A stretch of 39,541 bases of DNA from contig NZ_AHZV01000102.1 of the NCBI RefSeq assembly GCF_000250735.1, positions 1 through 39,541 on the forward strand, given 5' to 3'. Positions 905 to 10,565 of the stretch are shown piece after piece (positions within the stretch are counted from its first letter, which is position 1; each line of letters starts with the position of its first letter). A program made the translations under genes and the position numbers. The notes under the pieces were generated by a model, which saw only the letters and a program-made list of their open reading frames with translations, was not told where the DNA came from and made no database searches. This stretch comes from Anaerophaga thermohalophila str. Valhall. GTDB taxonomy: Bacteria > Bacteroidota > Bacteroidia > Bacteroidales > Marinilabiliaceae.

Positions 905-1609
905 ATGACAAACCGGCATTCAGTCAATATTCTTACGCAACCTGATGATACTACCTGCGGGCCAACAAGTCTGCACGCAGTTTATCGCTATTGGGGAATT
1001 GGTGTTTCCCTGGACGAGGTTTTACAATCGGTAGATTATCTTCACGACGGAGGAACCCTTGCTGTTATGCTCGGGATGGACGCGTTGAGAAGAGGCCTGA
1101 GAGCACGGATTTTTTCGTACAATCTGAAAATGTTTGATCCTACCTGGGAGCATTTTACAAACAAAGAACTTATTGACCATCTTGAACAACAGCTCCGCTA
1201 TAAACATGGAAAAAAGTTTGTTCAGGCCACCCGTGCTTACCAGAAATACCTTGAATTAGGAGGCGAAATCGTTTTTGAAGATTTGCATAAGGCCATTTTT
1301 GAACGTTACCTCTTGAACGGAATTCCTATTCTTACAGGTTTAAGTGCTACCTATTTGTACAATTCCAAACGAGAATATACCGACCACAAGGACAGATCGG
1401 TATATCATGATCTGAAGGGCGAACCCATGGGACATTTTGTTGTGCTGAGCGGAATGAGCGGGAACCGGGTTTTTATAGCAGACCCTTACAAGGAAAACCC
1501 CATCTCCGGAGACAATTACTATGAAGTCGGAATTAACCGTTTAATTAACTCCATAATGCTGGGTATTGTGACTTATGATGCCAATATGCTGATTGTGATG
1601 AAGGAATAG
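905..1609 (+). CDS. Papain/C39-like cysteine peptidase of an amidoligase cluster
   Basis: A 234-residue protein without signal peptide, so probably cytoplasmic. The N-terminal motif TQPDDTTCGPTSL gives Gln12 (oxyanion hole) and Cys18 (nucleophile). GHFVVLSG supplies His177 and IADPY supplies Asp193, completing the Cys-His-Asp arrangement of the papain-like/C39 fold. There is no ABC-transporter part, unlike bacteriocin-processing C39 enzymes. It is the first gene before a RimK-like ligase, a GCS2-type ligase and an N-formylglutamate amidohydrolase, 69 bp upstream of the second. Known families with this fold cleave or transfer peptide bonds. By context it may trim, hydrolyse or transpeptidate the product of the ligases; the substrate is unknown. 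Confidence 0.85.
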   Translation: MTNRHSVNILTQPDDTTCGPTSLHAVYRYWGIGVSLDEVLQSVDYLHDGGTLAVMLGMDALRRGLRARIFSYNLKMFDPTWEHFTNKELIDHLEQQLRYKHGKKFVQATRAYQKYLELGGEIVFEDLHKAIFERYLLNGIPILTGLSATYLYNSKREYTDHKDRSVYHDLKGEPMGHFVVLSGMSGNRVFIADPYKENPISGDNYYEVGINRLINSIMLGIVTYDANMLIVMKE

Positions 1610-1678
1610 TTTCTTAACTTTCTCAAAACAGACTTTAAATTACCTGTATTCGGACTCTGAATTGCTAATATAATAAAT

Positions 1679-3133
1679 GTGAAAAAGATTATCGTTATAA
1701 ATAAACCTTCGCACAGCGTGCTGGACGTTCCCGGCGTCGAAGTAATATCTCCCCGTCACTACCTGAGTGACGACAGTTATTCTAAACTAAAAAACATCAG
1801 GGTTTTCAATCTTTCCAATGACTATGCCTACCAAACCCGCGGTTATTATGTCTCTTTGCTGGCCGAAGCCCGGGGGCACAAGGTGGTGCCATCGGTGAAG
1901 AACATCCTCGATATGAAGGAGCGCGCATTGGTTAAAAGTGTCTCTGACGACGTGGATGACCTTGTTCAGAAGAGTTTGAAACGCATTCGTTCCAGGGAGT
2001 TTACTTTAAGCATCTATTTTGGCCAGAATGTTTCCAACCAGTATGCAAAATTAGCCAGAGAATTGCACAAACTGTTTCAGGCTCCTTTTCTCAGGGCACG
2101 TTTTGTTCATAATGGCAAAAAATGGGAAATATACTCTATCCGCACTATTCCTTTAAAGGAAGTGCCCGAGCACCATTTGCCTTATCTGCAAAGTTTTGCT
2201 GCCGAATATTTTGGTCGTAAACGCTATGATAATGCACGACAGGGAAAATACTTGTATGATCTGGCCATTCTTACCAATCCTGATGAGGCTTCGCCGCCTT
2301 CTAATAAAAAGGCTTTGACGGCATTTGCCGATGCTGCCGAAAAGCTTGGCTGTTATGTAGAGTTTATTACCAAAGATGATTATGACCGCATTGGTGAATT
2401 TGATGCTTTGTTCATACGCGAAACTACAGCTGTTAATCATCATACCTATCGCATTGCCAGGAGGGCCCAGAGTGAAGGCCTCGCCGTACTGGATTCTCCG
2501 GATTCTATTCTGAAATGTGCCAATAAGGTTTATCTGGCCGAGTTGTTGCGCGGGGCTCGCATCCCCACGCCACAAACTCTGGTATTATCATCCGATAATC
2601 CTAAAGATGCAGATTTGCTTGGATTTCCGTGTGTCCTCAAGCTGCCCGACTCTTCTTTTTCGCAGGGGGTGGTTAAAGTTAACGACAAGGAGGAGTTCAG
2701 GAGTAAAGTAAGAGAAATGCTTAAAGCCTCCGACCTGATTATTGCTCAGGAATATATGCCAACCGAATACGATTGGCGTGTGGGTGTACTCAACAATCAG
2801 GTGTTGTTTGTTTGCAGATACTACATGGCAGCAGGACATTGGCAGATATACAACTGGAACAGCAAAAAGAAGTCGGACGTTGAAGGTAATTTTGATATTC
2901 TTGAGCCGTCAGAGGCCCCGTCTGCCGTTATTGAAACAGCTTTAAGGGCAACCAGGCTTATTGGAAACGGGCTTTATGGCGTTGATATTAAGGAAATTGG
3001 AGGAAAGCCTTACATTATTGAGATTAATGATAATCCTAATATCGACGGCGGGGTGGAAGACCGCTTGTTAAAAGATGAACTTTACAGGAAAATTATTCTT
3101 TTTCTACTTGAACAGACAAATGTTGCCAAATGA
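1679..3133 (+). CDS. RimK-like ATP-grasp ligase with N-terminal RLAN domain
   Basis: A 484-residue protein. Residues 1 to about 180 match the RLAN domain that precedes RimK-like ATP-grasp domains (KKIIVINKP start, DVPGVEVISPRHYL). Residues about 280-475 are an ATP-grasp carboxylate-amine/thiol ligase with Lys321, the IAQEYMPTEYDWRVGVL segment, Asp436 in YGVDIKE, and Glu448/Asn450 in IEINDNPN for ATP-Mg binding. Such enzymes join an acyl-phosphate carboxylate to an amine, often adding glutamate. The start is GTG at 1679: the ATG two bases earlier is followed at once by TGA in its own frame. The stop overlaps the next start (ATGA), implying translational coupling. Substrates are unknown. Confidence 0.9.
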   Translation: MKKIIVINKPSHSVLDVPGVEVISPRHYLSDDSYSKLKNIRVFNLSNDYAYQTRGYYVSLLAEARGHKVVPSVKNILDMKERALVKSVSDDVDDLVQKSLKRIRSREFTLSIYFGQNVSNQYAKLARELHKLFQAPFLRARFVHNGKKWEIYSIRTIPLKEVPEHHLPYLQSFAAEYFGRKRYDNARQGKYLYDLAILTNPDEASPPSNKKALTAFADAAEKLGCYVEFITKDDYDRIGEFDALFIRETTAVNHHTYRIARRAQSEGLAVLDSPDSILKCANKVYLAELLRGARIPTPQTLVLSSDNPKDADLLGFPCVLKLPDSSFSQGVVKVNDKEEFRSKVREMLKASDLIIAQEYMPTEYDWRVGVLNNQVLFVCRYYMAAGHWQIYNWNSKKKSDVEGNFDILEPSEAPSAVIETALRATRLIGNGLYGVDIKEIGGKPYIIEINDNPNIDGGVEDRLLKDELYRKIILFLLEQTNVAK

Positions 3134-4374
3134 GCTCAGACCATTTTCATCTTTTCGATGTCACCGGCATTGAACTGGAATATATGATTGTCGACCGCAA
3201 GACCCTTAATGTTCTGCCGGTTTGTGATGAATTGCTCCGGCAGGTTACAGGTGAAATTACTGCCGATTTTGAAAATGGTTCTATTGCCTGGAGTAACGAG
3301 CTGGTTAACCACGTGGTGGAATTGAAAACCAACGGACCAGTCAAATCACGGTATGGCTTGCATCATGAGTTTCATAATAATGTATTACAAATCAATGAAA
3401 TCCTTGCAAAATTTGATGCATGCCTGTTGCCGGGCGGCGCACATCCCTGGATGAATCCTCGTAAAGAGACAAGTCTTTGGAAGCATGAATTCAATGAAAT
3501 TTACACCCTCTACGACCGTATTTTCGATTGCCGTGGACATGGATGGAGCAATCTGCAAAGTACACACATTAATTTACCGTTTAGCGGCGATGATGAATTC
3601 AAGCGCCTGCATGCTGCAGTACGGATGGTACTGCCAATTATTCCTGCCATTGCAGCATCTACTCCTTTTCTTGACGGACTTTATACCGGCTTCCACGATA
3701 GCAGAATGGAAACCTACAGGCACAATCAGGAAAAAATACCTTCAATTGCCGGCGTCATTATTCCCGAAGCAGTTTTTTCCAAACAGGAGTATCATCTTCG
3801 CATCTTTGATCCCATAGTCCATGATATTGCTCCATTCGACCACGACAAGGTACTGAATAAACACTTTTTGAATTCGCGAGGTGCCATTTCACGTTTCGAT
3901 CGTGGCGCCATTGAAATCCGTATTATTGATAATCAGGAGTCTCCATTGGCCGATATGGCCGTTGTGGATGCAGTCGTTGGCCTGATAAAACTGACTGCCG
4001 ACGGTTTTTTTTCCCCTTTGTCAGAACAGGTTAATTGGCATGAAAATACGCTGGCGGCCATTTTCCTTAAAACCATTCGTGAATCGGATATGGCTGTTAT
4101 TGAAAATTCATTGTACCTCGATTTCTGGGGTTGTCAGCAGCATCTAATGACGGCAGGAGACCTGTGGCGATATTTACTGCCTTCGCTGCAGGGGGTTATG
4201 GAACCTGTATACTTTGAAGTCTTCTCGAAGATTTTGAATGCCGGAACACTGGCAAGGCGATTATTAACCGTTATGGGAACCGATTTTTCGAGGGAACATT
4301 TTTACTATGTTTATGATAAATTGGCTCAGTGTCTTGCCGCTAACCGTCTGTTTGGGACAGATGCCGATGATTGA
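3130..4374 (+). CDS. GCS2-family carboxylate-amine ligase (glutamate-cysteine ligase-like)
   Basis: A 414-residue protein with the GIELEYMI motif at residues 13-20, typical of glutamate-cysteine ligase family 2 (glutamine-synthetase fold). Further family features are GGAHPWMNP, a Thr-His-Ile-Asn metal/substrate segment near residue 147, and an arginine-rich AIEIRIIDNQESPLADMA region. Members join the gamma-carboxyl of glutamate or a similar acid to an amine with ATP. Placement beside an RLAN-ATP-grasp ligase and a peptidase argues for a specialised metabolite or peptide rather than bulk glutathione synthesis; no glutathione synthetase (gshB) lies nearby. It overlaps both neighbours (4 bp upstream, 8 bp downstream). 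Confidence 0.88.
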   Translation: MSSDHFHLFDVTGIELEYMIVDRKTLNVLPVCDELLRQVTGEITADFENGSIAWSNELVNHVVELKTNGPVKSRYGLHHEFHNNVLQINEILAKFDACLLPGGAHPWMNPRKETSLWKHEFNEIYTLYDRIFDCRGHGWSNLQSTHINLPFSGDDEFKRLHAAVRMVLPIIPAIAASTPFLDGLYTGFHDSRMETYRHNQEKIPSIAGVIIPEAVFSKQEYHLRIFDPIVHDIAPFDHDKVLNKHFLNSRGAISRFDRGAIEIRIIDNQESPLADMAVVDAVVGLIKLTADGFFSPLSEQVNWHENTLAAIFLKTIRESDMAVIENSLYLDFWGCQQHLMTAGDLWRYLLPSLQGVMEPVYFEVFSKILNAGTLARRLLTVMGTDFSREHFYYVYDKLAQCLAANRLFGTDADD

Positions 4375-5083
4375 AACAAAACTGAAGATGGCAGTCGCGC
4401 TTTCGTGCGAACATGGCGGGAACTTTGTTCCGGATGCATTCCGGCCTCTCTTTTATGGGGATCCCAAAGTTCTTGAATCTCACCGTGGATGGGACCCCGG
4501 AGCCCTGGAACTGTTTCACGAGATGAGCAGAGCGGATGTTGATTATTCCTTGTTTGCCGAAACCACGCGGTTGCTGATAGACATTAACCGTTCACTCAAT
4601 AAAAGGACGCTTTTTTCTGAGTATACACATCCCTTGTCATCCGATGATAAGAAGCGAATTATTACTTTGTATTATACGCCTTTCAGGACGAATTTTCGTT
4701 CCCGGCTTGCAGAGTTGATTCATGAAAAAAGTTTCGTTCTCCATGTTTCTGTTCATTCATTTACACCCGTTTTTAAAGGTAAAGTGCGTAACGCAGACAT
4801 AGGTTTACTTTACGATCCGGGTTTTGGAATAGAAAAAGAACTGGCTGACAGGTGGAGAAAGTGCATTTCAGAAAAAATGCCCCGGTTGCGGATTAGGATG
4901 AACTATCCCTATTTGGGCAAAAATGACGGTCATGTTTTTGCACTGAGAAATTATTTTGGATCTTCGTTGTATGCAGGTATTGAACTTGAAGTGAATCAAA
5001 AGTACGCTTTCCGTAAAGATTTTAACAGAACTTTCTCTGATGCATTTAAGAATTTCCTGAATGACCTAAAAAGCAATGGATGA
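4367..5083 (+). CDS. N-formylglutamate amidohydrolase family protein
   Basis: A 238-residue protein with hallmarks of the N-formylglutamate deformylase/HutG2-like zinc hydrolase family: SCEHGGN (residues 13-19), HRGWDPGA (39-46), a DINRS segment (72-76) and HVSVHSF (126-132). The family hydrolyses amide bonds of N-acylated glutamate-like compounds. It is the last gene of the four-gene cluster, so it probably deprotects or degrades the cluster product; it is not beside histidine-utilisation genes. ATG 4367 was chosen because it gives family length and an 8-bp overlap with the previous gene. A start at 4307 would lie deep inside the upstream gene, and ATG 4388 is also possible. Confidence 0.87.
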   Translation: MIETKLKMAVALSCEHGGNFVPDAFRPLFYGDPKVLESHRGWDPGALELFHEMSRADVDYSLFAETTRLLIDINRSLNKRTLFSEYTHPLSSDDKKRIITLYYTPFRTNFRSRLAELIHEKSFVLHVSVHSFTPVFKGKVRNADIGLLYDPGFGIEKELADRWRKCISEKMPRLRIRMNYPYLGKNDGHVFALRNYFGSSLYAGIELEVNQKYAFRKDFNRTFSDAFKNFLNDLKSNG

Positions 5084-5234
5084 GTCTGTTCAAGGCCTGA
5101 GAAAATGACGTCATCGAACACCGTTTTTTGAACAAAGCAGGATAGTGTCGTGTCAGGCATAGAATGACGTTTAAGTTGAACCTGATTTTACTTATTTCAA
5201 AATGAGGAAAAGTGCGCATAACCATAGCTACTAA

Positions 5235-5393
5235 GTGTCTGTCCATAAAGTGCCATTTACTGTGTTACGCTCGTCCGAAAATTACTCATTTACGAGTAGT
5301 AAACTCCGTATTTTCGGCCTTCGCAAGCCTTGTAAATGACACTTTCTGAACAGACACACATATTGTGAAAATTTTTGCGAGTTTATAGACGCA
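5235..5393 (+). mobile_element. MITE-like element, copy A
   Basis: About 159 bp. The left end is GTGTCTGTCCATAAAG and the right end reads TTTATAGACGCA, a slightly shortened version of the right terminus of the other copies. Internally, GTGTCTGTcCAtAAAGTGcCATTTAC at 5235-5260 pairs with its near reverse complement (23 of 26 positions) at about 5332-5357. An inner CCGAAAAT/ATTTTCGG pair extends the fold into a long hairpin. No open reading frame is present. No clear target duplication is visible here (flanks TACTAA and ATAGTC), consistent with decay. Confidence 0.8.
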
Positions 5394-5684
5394 ATAGTCA
5401 GTTAAAAAAAGCCTAAACGCAGAGACGTAATGACGCAAAGTTTTTATTATGAGATAGTTGTGATTTGCCTTATTGATTGTGTAAACAATTAATTACCTCG
5501 TATTTGTTAACGAAGTATTCAGACGGACACTACTTAATTTTTTTATCATGAAAAAAATCAGTGATGCATTGGGCGATATTTTATGCTTGATTTGACACCA
5601 GCTCCGGGATTTTTTTCCGGATACTTCGCTTTTGCTATTATGCCTTTCTTTTCTCCGGGTGCAGAATAATAGTTCCCGATTCTT

Positions 5685-9026: not shown

Positions 9027-10565
9027 ATGGGAATAACAGAAATAGTAATAGCAATTGTAGCTTTTGTTGCCGGTGGCGGCCTGACCTGGGTGCTGATATA
9101 CAAAGCATTGGGTGCCCGATCACGTAAGATTATCCGGGAGGCAGAGGCCGAAGCTGAAGTGATTAAGAAAGATAAAATACTTCAGGCCAAAGAAAAGTTC
9201 CTACAGCTTAAAGCTGAACATGAAAAAGAAATCAATGCCCGTAATTCAAAGATTATTGCTGCAGAGAACAAACTCAAACAAAAAGAGACTGCGTTCTCTC
9301 AAAAGATGGAAGAATTTCAGAGAAAAAAGAAAGAAAATGATGTCATACGGGAGAATCTTGATCAACAGCTGGAACTGGTAGAAAAGAAAAGTGAAGACCT
9401 GGAAAGAACGCATAAGCGTCAGGTAGAGCAATTAGAAGCCATTTCCGGAATGTCGGCCGAGGAAGCCAAAGAGATGCTTGTTGAATCGCTTAAAGCTGAG
9501 GCCAAAACCGAGGCGATGTCGTACATCAATGACATAATGGATGAGGCACGTATTAATGCAAATAAGGAGGCCAAACGAATTGTTCTTCAGACCATTCAGC
9601 GTACTGCCACCGAAACCGCTATCGAAAATTCGGTGACCATTTTCCATATCGATTCTGACGAGATAAAGGGACGAATTATTGGCCGTGAAGGACGAAATAT
9701 CAGGGCCCTGGAGGCTGCAACAGGTGTTGAGATCATAGTGGATGACACACCCGAGGCCATTGTACTCTCAGGATTCGATCCTATGCGTCGCGAAGTGGCA
9801 CGCCTTGCTCTTCATCAGTTGGTGACCGACGGGAGAATACACCCGGCACGCATCGAAGAGGTTGTCAATAAAGTGCGTAAACAGGTGGAAGAGGAGATGA
9901 TTGAGAATGGGAAACGCACAGCCATTGACCTGGGGGTTCACGGACTTCACCCCGAGCTTATTAAATTAATAGGTAAAATGAAGTATCGTTCCTCTTACGG
10001 TCAGAACCTTTTACAGCACAGCAGGGAGACTGCCAACCTGTGCGCCATTATGGCTTCTGAACTGGGCTTGAATACTAAAAAGGCAAAACGCGCCGGACTT
10101 CTCCACGATATTGGAAAAGTGAGTGATGAAGACCCTGATCTTCCGCACGCTATTCTTGGAATGAAACTGGCCGAAAAGTTTAAAGAGAAACCGGATATCT
10201 GCAACGCTATTGGTGCCCACCATGATGAGGTGGAAATGACAAGTATGATTTCACCTATTGTTCAGGTCTGCGATGCCATCTCGGGTGCAAGGCCGGGTGC
10301 CCGTCGAGAGGTTGTGGAAGCTTATATTAAGCGACTTAAAGACCTGGAAACCCTGGCTTTGTCATATCCGGGTGTGCTAAAAACTTATGCTATCCAGGCA
10401 GGACGTGAACTAAGAGTAATTGTGGGAAGTGAAAAAGTGAGTGATCATGAAGCAGACCAGCTTTCTGCCGAGATTGCACGAAAAATACAAACTGAAATGA
10501 CTTACCCGGGACAGGTAAAAATAACAGTCATCAGAGAGACCCGTGCAATTAGTTTTGCAAAATAA
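9027..10565 (+). CDS. rny: Ribonuclease Y
   Basis: A 512-residue membrane-anchored endoribonuclease that starts mRNA decay. Residues 4-26 form one transmembrane helix ([20 protein letters not shown]). Residues about 30-200 are a long charged coiled coil. A KH RNA-binding domain follows ([19 protein letters not shown] near residues 215-233), and then an HD metallohydrolase domain with HSRETANL and LLHDIGK (about 330-365) and the later HHDEVE. Length and order match RNase Y. The start ATG 9027 places the membrane helix at the extreme N-terminus. Bounded by the folded element upstream and a terminator downstream. Confidence 0.97.

Follow-up and report, generated by a model that had tools for sequence, protein, structure and literature searches.

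A two-ligase gene cluster with accessory hydrolases in Anaerophaga thermohalophila, possibly for a small capped peptide

The gene row and its proteins

The stretch of DNA analysed here, referred to as the window, comprises positions 1 to 39,541 (39,541 nucleotides) of contig NZ_AHZV01000102.1 from Anaerophaga thermohalophila str. Valhall (assembly GCF_000250735.1), a member of the Marinilabiliaceae. Open reading frames and Pfam matches place four genes in a row at 905-5083 on its forward strand: a papain-like, C39-like cysteine peptidase (905-1609, 234 residues), an RLAN/RimK-like ATP-grasp ligase (1679-3133, 484 residues), a GCS2-fold carboxylate-amine ligase (3130-4374, 414 residues) and an FGase-family amidohydrolase (4307-5083, 258 residues). 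All matches lie above the curated cut-offs, confirming the original prediction, made from the sequence alone, that genes of these named families stand together here.

The first two genes are separated by 69 bases, and the RLAN and GCS2 genes overlap by 4 bases. It had also been predicted that the last three genes have overlapping ends, which holds for this pair but probably not for GCS2 and FGase. The family alignment and profile match of the FGase protein begin at about Met28, base 4388, past the GCS2 stop, so its start is probably near 4388 and the two genes overlap only with translation from the first ATG (4307). Upstream lie ribosomal-protein genes for L28 (Pfam) and L33 (by eye), separated from the row by a terminator-like hairpin with a T-run at about 770-802 on the same strand (seen by eye, unscored), and the four-gene row thus seems to begin afresh at 905. 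Among the matches listed, the closest named genome is A. thermohalophila DSM 12881 (ligase 96%).

The RLAN domain (PF14401, 1754-2185) of the first ligase is matched at E 2.6e-47 and is followed by RimK and Dala_Dala_lig_C matches, each over its curated cut-off. This fusion of an RLAN domain to a RimK-like ATP-grasp assigns the protein to the RLAN-ATP-grasp system. It falls short of curated RimK membership (rimK_fam 69.1 bits, cut-off 143.4) and lies under the cut-off of every NCBIfam model matched. Lys321, Glu448 and Asn450, which we take to be catalytic by analogy, are invariant among 31 aligned relatives. An AlphaFold model (predicted local distance difference test, pLDDT, 83) has LysX/ArgX (best Z 27.0) and RimK (best Z 25.4) as its nearest solved folds by Foldseek and structure alignment. 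The matches listed span residues 190-484 only, the ATP-grasp part (2255-3124), so nothing is said here of the fold of the RLAN domain.

The GCS2 protein matches its Pfam family at E 2.6e-22, over the curated cut-off, and its presumed catalytic residues, chosen by analogy (Glu15, Glu17, His146 and Arg264), are invariant among 36 aligned relatives. A profile search against PDB sequences gave no match at E 0.001, and a fold search placed the protein instead: the model (pLDDT 91) is nearest to YbdK (Z 38.4, root-mean-square deviation 2.5, 347 aligned residues), which makes it a member of the YbdK-type carboxylate-amine ligase fold. Next comes plant glutamate-cysteine ligase (GCL; Z 33.7) and, distantly, Dop and PafA (Z about 15-20). 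Curated models do not claim the protein: the YbdK-family NCBIfam model scores 50.9 bits (cut-off 176.4), the best glutamate-cysteine ligase model 37.4 bits (cut-off 409), and every other NCBIfam model matched is likewise below its cut-off.

These results bear on whether the two ligases make a glutathione-like thiol, in which GCS2 would form gamma-Glu-Cys, or something related, and the ATP-grasp enzyme would add a third residue. Glutathione synthesis pairs these same two folds, which would suit such a route, as would YbdK and plant GCL being the nearest folds of the GCS2 model. However, the same genome carries elsewhere a plant-type GCL (TIGR01436, 542.9 bits, cut-off 463.15) beside a stand-alone ATP-grasp protein nearest the synthetase half of bifunctional GshA/GshB (GshF-like). 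The two genes lie on contig C204 of that genome, handled here as G000 (locus L111, 1198-2556 and 2766-3776, reverse strand), and are probably a split glutathione pair; no PF02955 (GshB) match was found in that genome. The window GCS2 is thus an enzyme other than the genome's ordinary glutamate-cysteine ligase. Had it been an ordinary gamma-glutamylcysteine synthetase paired with a distant gshB, the original prediction would have failed; that outcome was not found, the genome's own GCL sitting elsewhere. Ordinary glutathione synthesis is disfavoured by the sub-cut-off GCS2 scores, the separate GCL/GshF-like pair and the lack of a PF02955 match. A GNAT protein also stands in the place of GCS2 in other lineages (see below), and a glutathione-like thiol is accordingly held to be very unlikely.

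The two hydrolases also belong clearly to their families. The cysteine peptidase matches Peptidase_C39_2 at E 2.4e-9, over the curated cut-off, and hhalign relates it to DUF3335 (probability 95, E 2.6e-8), so that it is a papain-like peptidase of the C39/DUF3335 type found in the RLAN-ATP-grasp system. Cys18, His177 and Asp193, presumably the catalytic residues by analogy, are invariant among 20 aligned relatives. The FGase domain is matched at E 1.8e-20, over the curated cut-off, and the CEH motif at 34-36, His59, His150 and Glu228, assumed by analogy to be catalytic, are invariant among 21 aligned relatives. With the expected residues invariant in all four families, the predicted integrity of the catalytic motifs appears sound.

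Core and accessory genes

Occurrence was surveyed in 395 Bacteroidota genomes (365 for the C39 profile) and 398 Pseudomonadota genomes. RLAN was found in 44 of the 395 Bacteroidota genomes, with 43 of these over the cut-off, and in 72 of the 398 Pseudomonadota genomes. The profile of the GCS2 subfamily matched 30 Bacteroidota genomes, all of them among the 44 with RLAN, and none of the 351 without it (Fisher p 1.2e-34, uncorrected for descent; 19 genera). As such, RLAN ligase and GCS2 form the core of the cluster.

The hydrolases are accessory genes, missing or lost in some places. All 25 genomes (of 365) matched by the C39 profile have GCS2, and short loci (L005, L025) add two more, G372 and G384, which are absent from the C39 listing and were probably not among the 365 drawn. 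C39 thus accompanies GCS2 in 27 of 30 genomes. In the 24 genomes with RLAN but without an adjacent C39 the profile found no match, and it did match the window's own genome. The FGase profile matched 24 of 395 genomes, namely 21 with GCS2 and three without RLAN (G081, G151, G364), leaving nine of the 30 GCS2 genomes without it. All four genes occur in 18 of the 30 by a hand count from the genome lists. At the level of loci, where counts mean adjacency within 3 kb and contig ends hide some neighbours, 42 of 92 GCS2 loci have both hydrolases and thus all four genes, 31 have FGase only, 12 have C39 only and seven have neither; in three Fibrobacter loci FGase lies about 4.7 kb away. The frequency of four-gene loci, together with the recurrence of RLAN with GCS2 in 19 genera, indicates that the row is more than chance. 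The outcome that would have spoken against the original prediction, genes seldom found together elsewhere, was therefore not encountered, co-occurrence being wide in Bacteroidota. Its notion of the four genes as one set was not borne out, and an obligate four-gene unit is rejected, since C39 or FGase is absent from many RLAN-GCS2 genomes and loci.

Loss of the FGase gene can be followed in the sister species A. thermohalophila DSM 12881, where window positions 4387-5593 (1207 bases) are absent and the flanks match at 90-91%. The gap falls near 10481-10485 of its locus (L031), and the FGase gene, counted from its likely start, lies wholly inside it, apparently a natural loss of a single gene. 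This singles out two close strains that would be expected to differ in turnover. Another locus (L034) holds a possible FGase remnant (36 residues, 39%, E 0.001).

The three genomes with FGase alone belong to one genus (g88), and RLAN and GCS2 profile searches found no match in them. Their FGase genes (L214 7476-8189, L215 7089-7802, L216 1379-2092) have aminotransferase-like, dehydrogenase-like and transporter-like neighbours by eye. A solitary FGase is what would be expected of a salvage enzyme, and the family is known for degradation. Both points could favour a role in amine or amino-acid utilisation, in which GCS2 would mark an amine with glutamate for breakdown and the hydrolases would recover the glutamate. 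Such a route would need fewer than two ligases, and besides DUF155 no further family common to lineages was seen in the neighbourhood clusters, in which few neighbours are annotated. It is judged distinctly unlikely.

Several other genes were seen near the core. DUF155 (RMND1/Sif2-Sif3/Mrx10) genes lie near RLAN in both Pseudomonadota and Bacteroidota (L160, L164, L169, L184, L186, L200, L202, L203 and one more among the window-like loci of set A, described below). A DUF2817 gene adjoins the RLAN ligase in five Pseudomonadota loci (L160 4990-6105, L169 4705-5811, L164, L176 and L179). In L089, L091, L092, L099, L109 and L110 an M14 peptidase and/or a GNAT-nitrilase fusion lies upstream of RLAN-GCS2-FGase, and C39 is missing. 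A relationship of FGase to DUF2817 or M14 peptidases was unsupported (hhalign probability 1.5 and 0.6). In one single-contig genome (G179, L204) the RLAN ligase and GCS2 are each split in two frames, through decay or sequencing errors. In Pontibacter loci, including L055, L060 and L061, the cluster is located just downstream of arginine-synthesis-like genes by eye. A link to arginine synthesis was rejected, as these genes are upstream in Pontibacter only, which is lineage synteny, and the L041 protein assigned to the same neighbourhood cluster is by eye of aspartase/fumarase type.

Exchange of GNAT and GCS2

The partner of the RLAN ligase differs between lineages. One source of loci was set A, the 80 of 203 most similar to the window, in which Pontibacter and Flavobacteriaceae are heavily represented. 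Further loci were fetched with flanks from 40 Pseudomonadota genomes (of the 72 with RLAN) and 20 Bacteroidota genomes (of 44), some of which may repeat set A species. Of 141 RLAN loci, 92 have GCS2 as the partner, 46 have GNAT (by a profile built from six loci that are themselves in this count), none has both and three have neither. A putative amine-acylating partner is therefore adjacent in 138 of 141, and in the window it is GCS2. Similarly, 30 short Bacteroidota loci, partly the same as the 141, have GCS2 in 26, fused GNAT in four and both in none. GNAT stands beside the RLAN ligase in 39 of 40 Pseudomonadota loci and is fused to the papain-like DUF3335 in 29. Six of the 46 GNAT loci were scored as fused to RLAN, and one locus (L177) has both a fused GNAT and a GNAT-DUF3335 protein.

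The RLAN genomes that lack GCS2 follow a related pattern. Nine of these 14 have GNAT fused to RLAN (L022 and L191 in one genome, L028-L030, L190, L192-L195), three (G089, G187, G262) have only frames of the length of such a fusion, one (G155, L196) has GNAT-DUF3335 beside a split RLAN frame, and one (G370) has a sub-cut-off RLAN fragment. The division between GNAT and GCS2 types does not track phylum labels exactly, as GCS2-type loci are also labelled Gammaproteobacteria (L094), Desulfobulbaceae (L041), Algicola (L097), Fibrobacter, Spirochaetes and Melioribacter, several of these being metagenome-assembled genomes of unchecked binning. A tree of 88 RLAN proteins, built by a quick method and excluding L196 as too short, requires at least two changes between GNAT and GCS2, one of them forced by starred branches. 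As the tree needs only two switches, the exclusion is clean yet represents few events.

The RLAN-associated GNAT carries the acetyl-CoA-type motif at the expected place in five of six seeds, and in two proteins tested it was nearest to RimI (73.6 and 68.5 bits, below the cut-off of 86.4). The nearness of GNAT to RimI and of the ATP-grasp part to RimK could suggest protein tagging, in which the ligases would add amino acids to a protein end, as RimK does on ribosomal protein S6, and the hydrolases would remove them. The distant likeness of the GCS2 fold to the depupylase Dop and the Pup ligase PafA points the same way, and the RimB/RimK pair is a precedent for such writing and erasing (PMC12239564). 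Against this, YbdK fits the GCS2 model much better, and among the 15 largest small-ORF clusters listed (25-100 residues, within 1.5 kb) there is no gene for a small target or tag beyond the synteny of one lineage, larger targets being unsought. Protein tagging is regarded as unlikely. Of these 15 clusters, 13 are from Pontibacter (two with one Fibrobacter locus each) and two from Flavobacteriaceae and close loci; they reflect lineage synteny, and a precursor of a ribosomally synthesised and post-translationally modified peptide or a LysW-like carrier was likewise rejected.

A cap could also act as a protecting group within some larger pathway; butirosin synthesis, for example, adds a gamma-glutamyl cap and takes it off at a later stage. 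The genes for the cap and possible de-cap enzymes adjoin, and the papain-like BtrH_N family of the butirosin pathway is closely related to C39 (PMC10318531). However, the lack of FGase in nine of the 30 GCS2 genomes does not suit this explanation, and no further biosynthetic gene or small carrier common to lineages appears in the neighbourhood clusters or the small-ORF clusters listed. Its probability is considered low, on a level with that of the thiol.

A possible capped-peptide pathway

Several lines of evidence converge on a different reading: the coupling of the core, the partner swap, the likenesses of ATP-grasp, GCS2 and GNAT, the accessory status of the hydrolases and the separate glutathione-type pair. 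On these grounds the cluster is tentatively read, at somewhat under an even chance, as a pathway in which a small capped peptide is made and turned over. Like LysX/ArgX and RimK, the RLAN-ATP-grasp ligase would activate a carboxylate and join it to an amino acid through the latter's amine. Before this ligation, the GCS2 ligase would use ATP to cap a free amine of the same molecule, the donor carboxylate most simply being glutamate. This capping step is suggested by GNAT, nearest to the N-terminal acetyltransferase RimI, standing in the place of GCS2 in other lineages, and the two would share one chemical step, amine acylation. The C39/DUF3335-type enzyme may cleave or transfer the peptide and the FGase-type enzyme may remove an acylated amino acid. 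Both would serve turnover or salvage and be dispensable for making the product, as they are absent from many genomes. A capped small peptide would be the simplest product, by analogy with the N-acetylglutaminylglutamine amide (NAGGN) system and glutathione. A two-ligase pathway with hydrolases, as originally predicted, remains the best reading of the families, folds and co-occurrence, while the analysis offers no evidence for the specificity proposed with it, whether for glutamate, amine or thiol.

Some points weigh against a capped peptide. The cluster is without a known substrate or product, the RLAN domain has no assigned role, and the fold evidence would agree equally with a substrate that is a protein. 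With only two changes on the RLAN tree, the GNAT/GCS2 exclusion may go back to a single replacement event. Neither partner lies near the RLAN gene in three loci (L048, L100, L152), and in nine loci of Flavobacteriaceae and close relatives a GNAT-nitrilase fusion lies near RLAN-GCS2. This nitrilase-fused GNAT has no detectable kinship with the RLAN-associated subfamily (hhalign probability 1), for which the samples examined hold no exception to the exclusion, but its presence still places a GNAT alongside GCS2.

A broader version of the capped-peptide proposal is possible but doubtful: a widespread peptide from one ligase core with an exchangeable cap, in which GNAT would act in most lineages and GCS2 in a Bacteroidota-type branch, so that the two branches would make the same molecule with different caps. 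If this were true, roughly one in ten Bacteroidota species and fewer than one in five Pseudomonadota species would make the peptide. GCS2 in the place of GNAT would narrow the step to amine acylation and provide paired systems whose products could be compared by mass. The ligase system occurs in 44 of 395 and 72 of 398 genomes of these phyla, and no product for it was found in the literature searched.

Comparison with known systems

Parts of this gene association have been noticed before. Iyer et al. (2009) reportedly noted that RLAN lies near GNAT, papain-like peptidase and GCS2 genes, and the Pfam RLAN entry is said to list the same neighbours. In published work, DUF3335 members are described, with reference to Iyer et al. 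2009, as often fused to GNAT domains, which are themselves named as possible peptide ligases or acetylases (PMC10318531), and operons are described that link ATP-grasp ligases with COOH-NH2 ligases or GNATs (PMC4431377); general context is provided by two further sources (PMC8939145, PMC2922099). In the titles and abstracts of the open-access literature searched, no paper on the cluster was found, nor any account of the GNAT/GCS2 exclusion or of the accessory status of C39 and FGase. The earlier description of an undescribed pathway is therefore too strong for the gene association, though no product turned up in the literature searched.

Among known systems, glutathione synthesis (GshA/GshB, GshF) has the same pairing of a GCS2-type enzyme with an ATP-grasp enzyme, but the subfamilies in the window differ. 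LysX/ArgX and RimK share the ATP-grasp fold, whereas the window ligase has an additional RLAN domain and, among the small-ORF clusters listed, no small carrier gene nearby is common to lineages. The N-formylglutamate amidohydrolases of HutG type share the Pfam FGase family (solved relative 2odf, E 8.3e-31), and the window FGase differs in being linked to ligases and in having no NCBIfam match. In the NAGGN system (TIGR03103 and partners), a GNAT and an ATP-grasp enzyme make a capped dipeptide; the GNAT-RLAN fusions appear similar in layout, but the window ligase has no TIGR03103 match at E 0.001. The RLAN / GNAT-DUF3335 neighbourhood (PF14401, PF11814) likewise combines an RLAN-ATP-grasp ligase with a papain-like, C39-type peptidase, and the window differs from it in having GCS2 in the place of GNAT, C39 as a separate gene and FGase following after.

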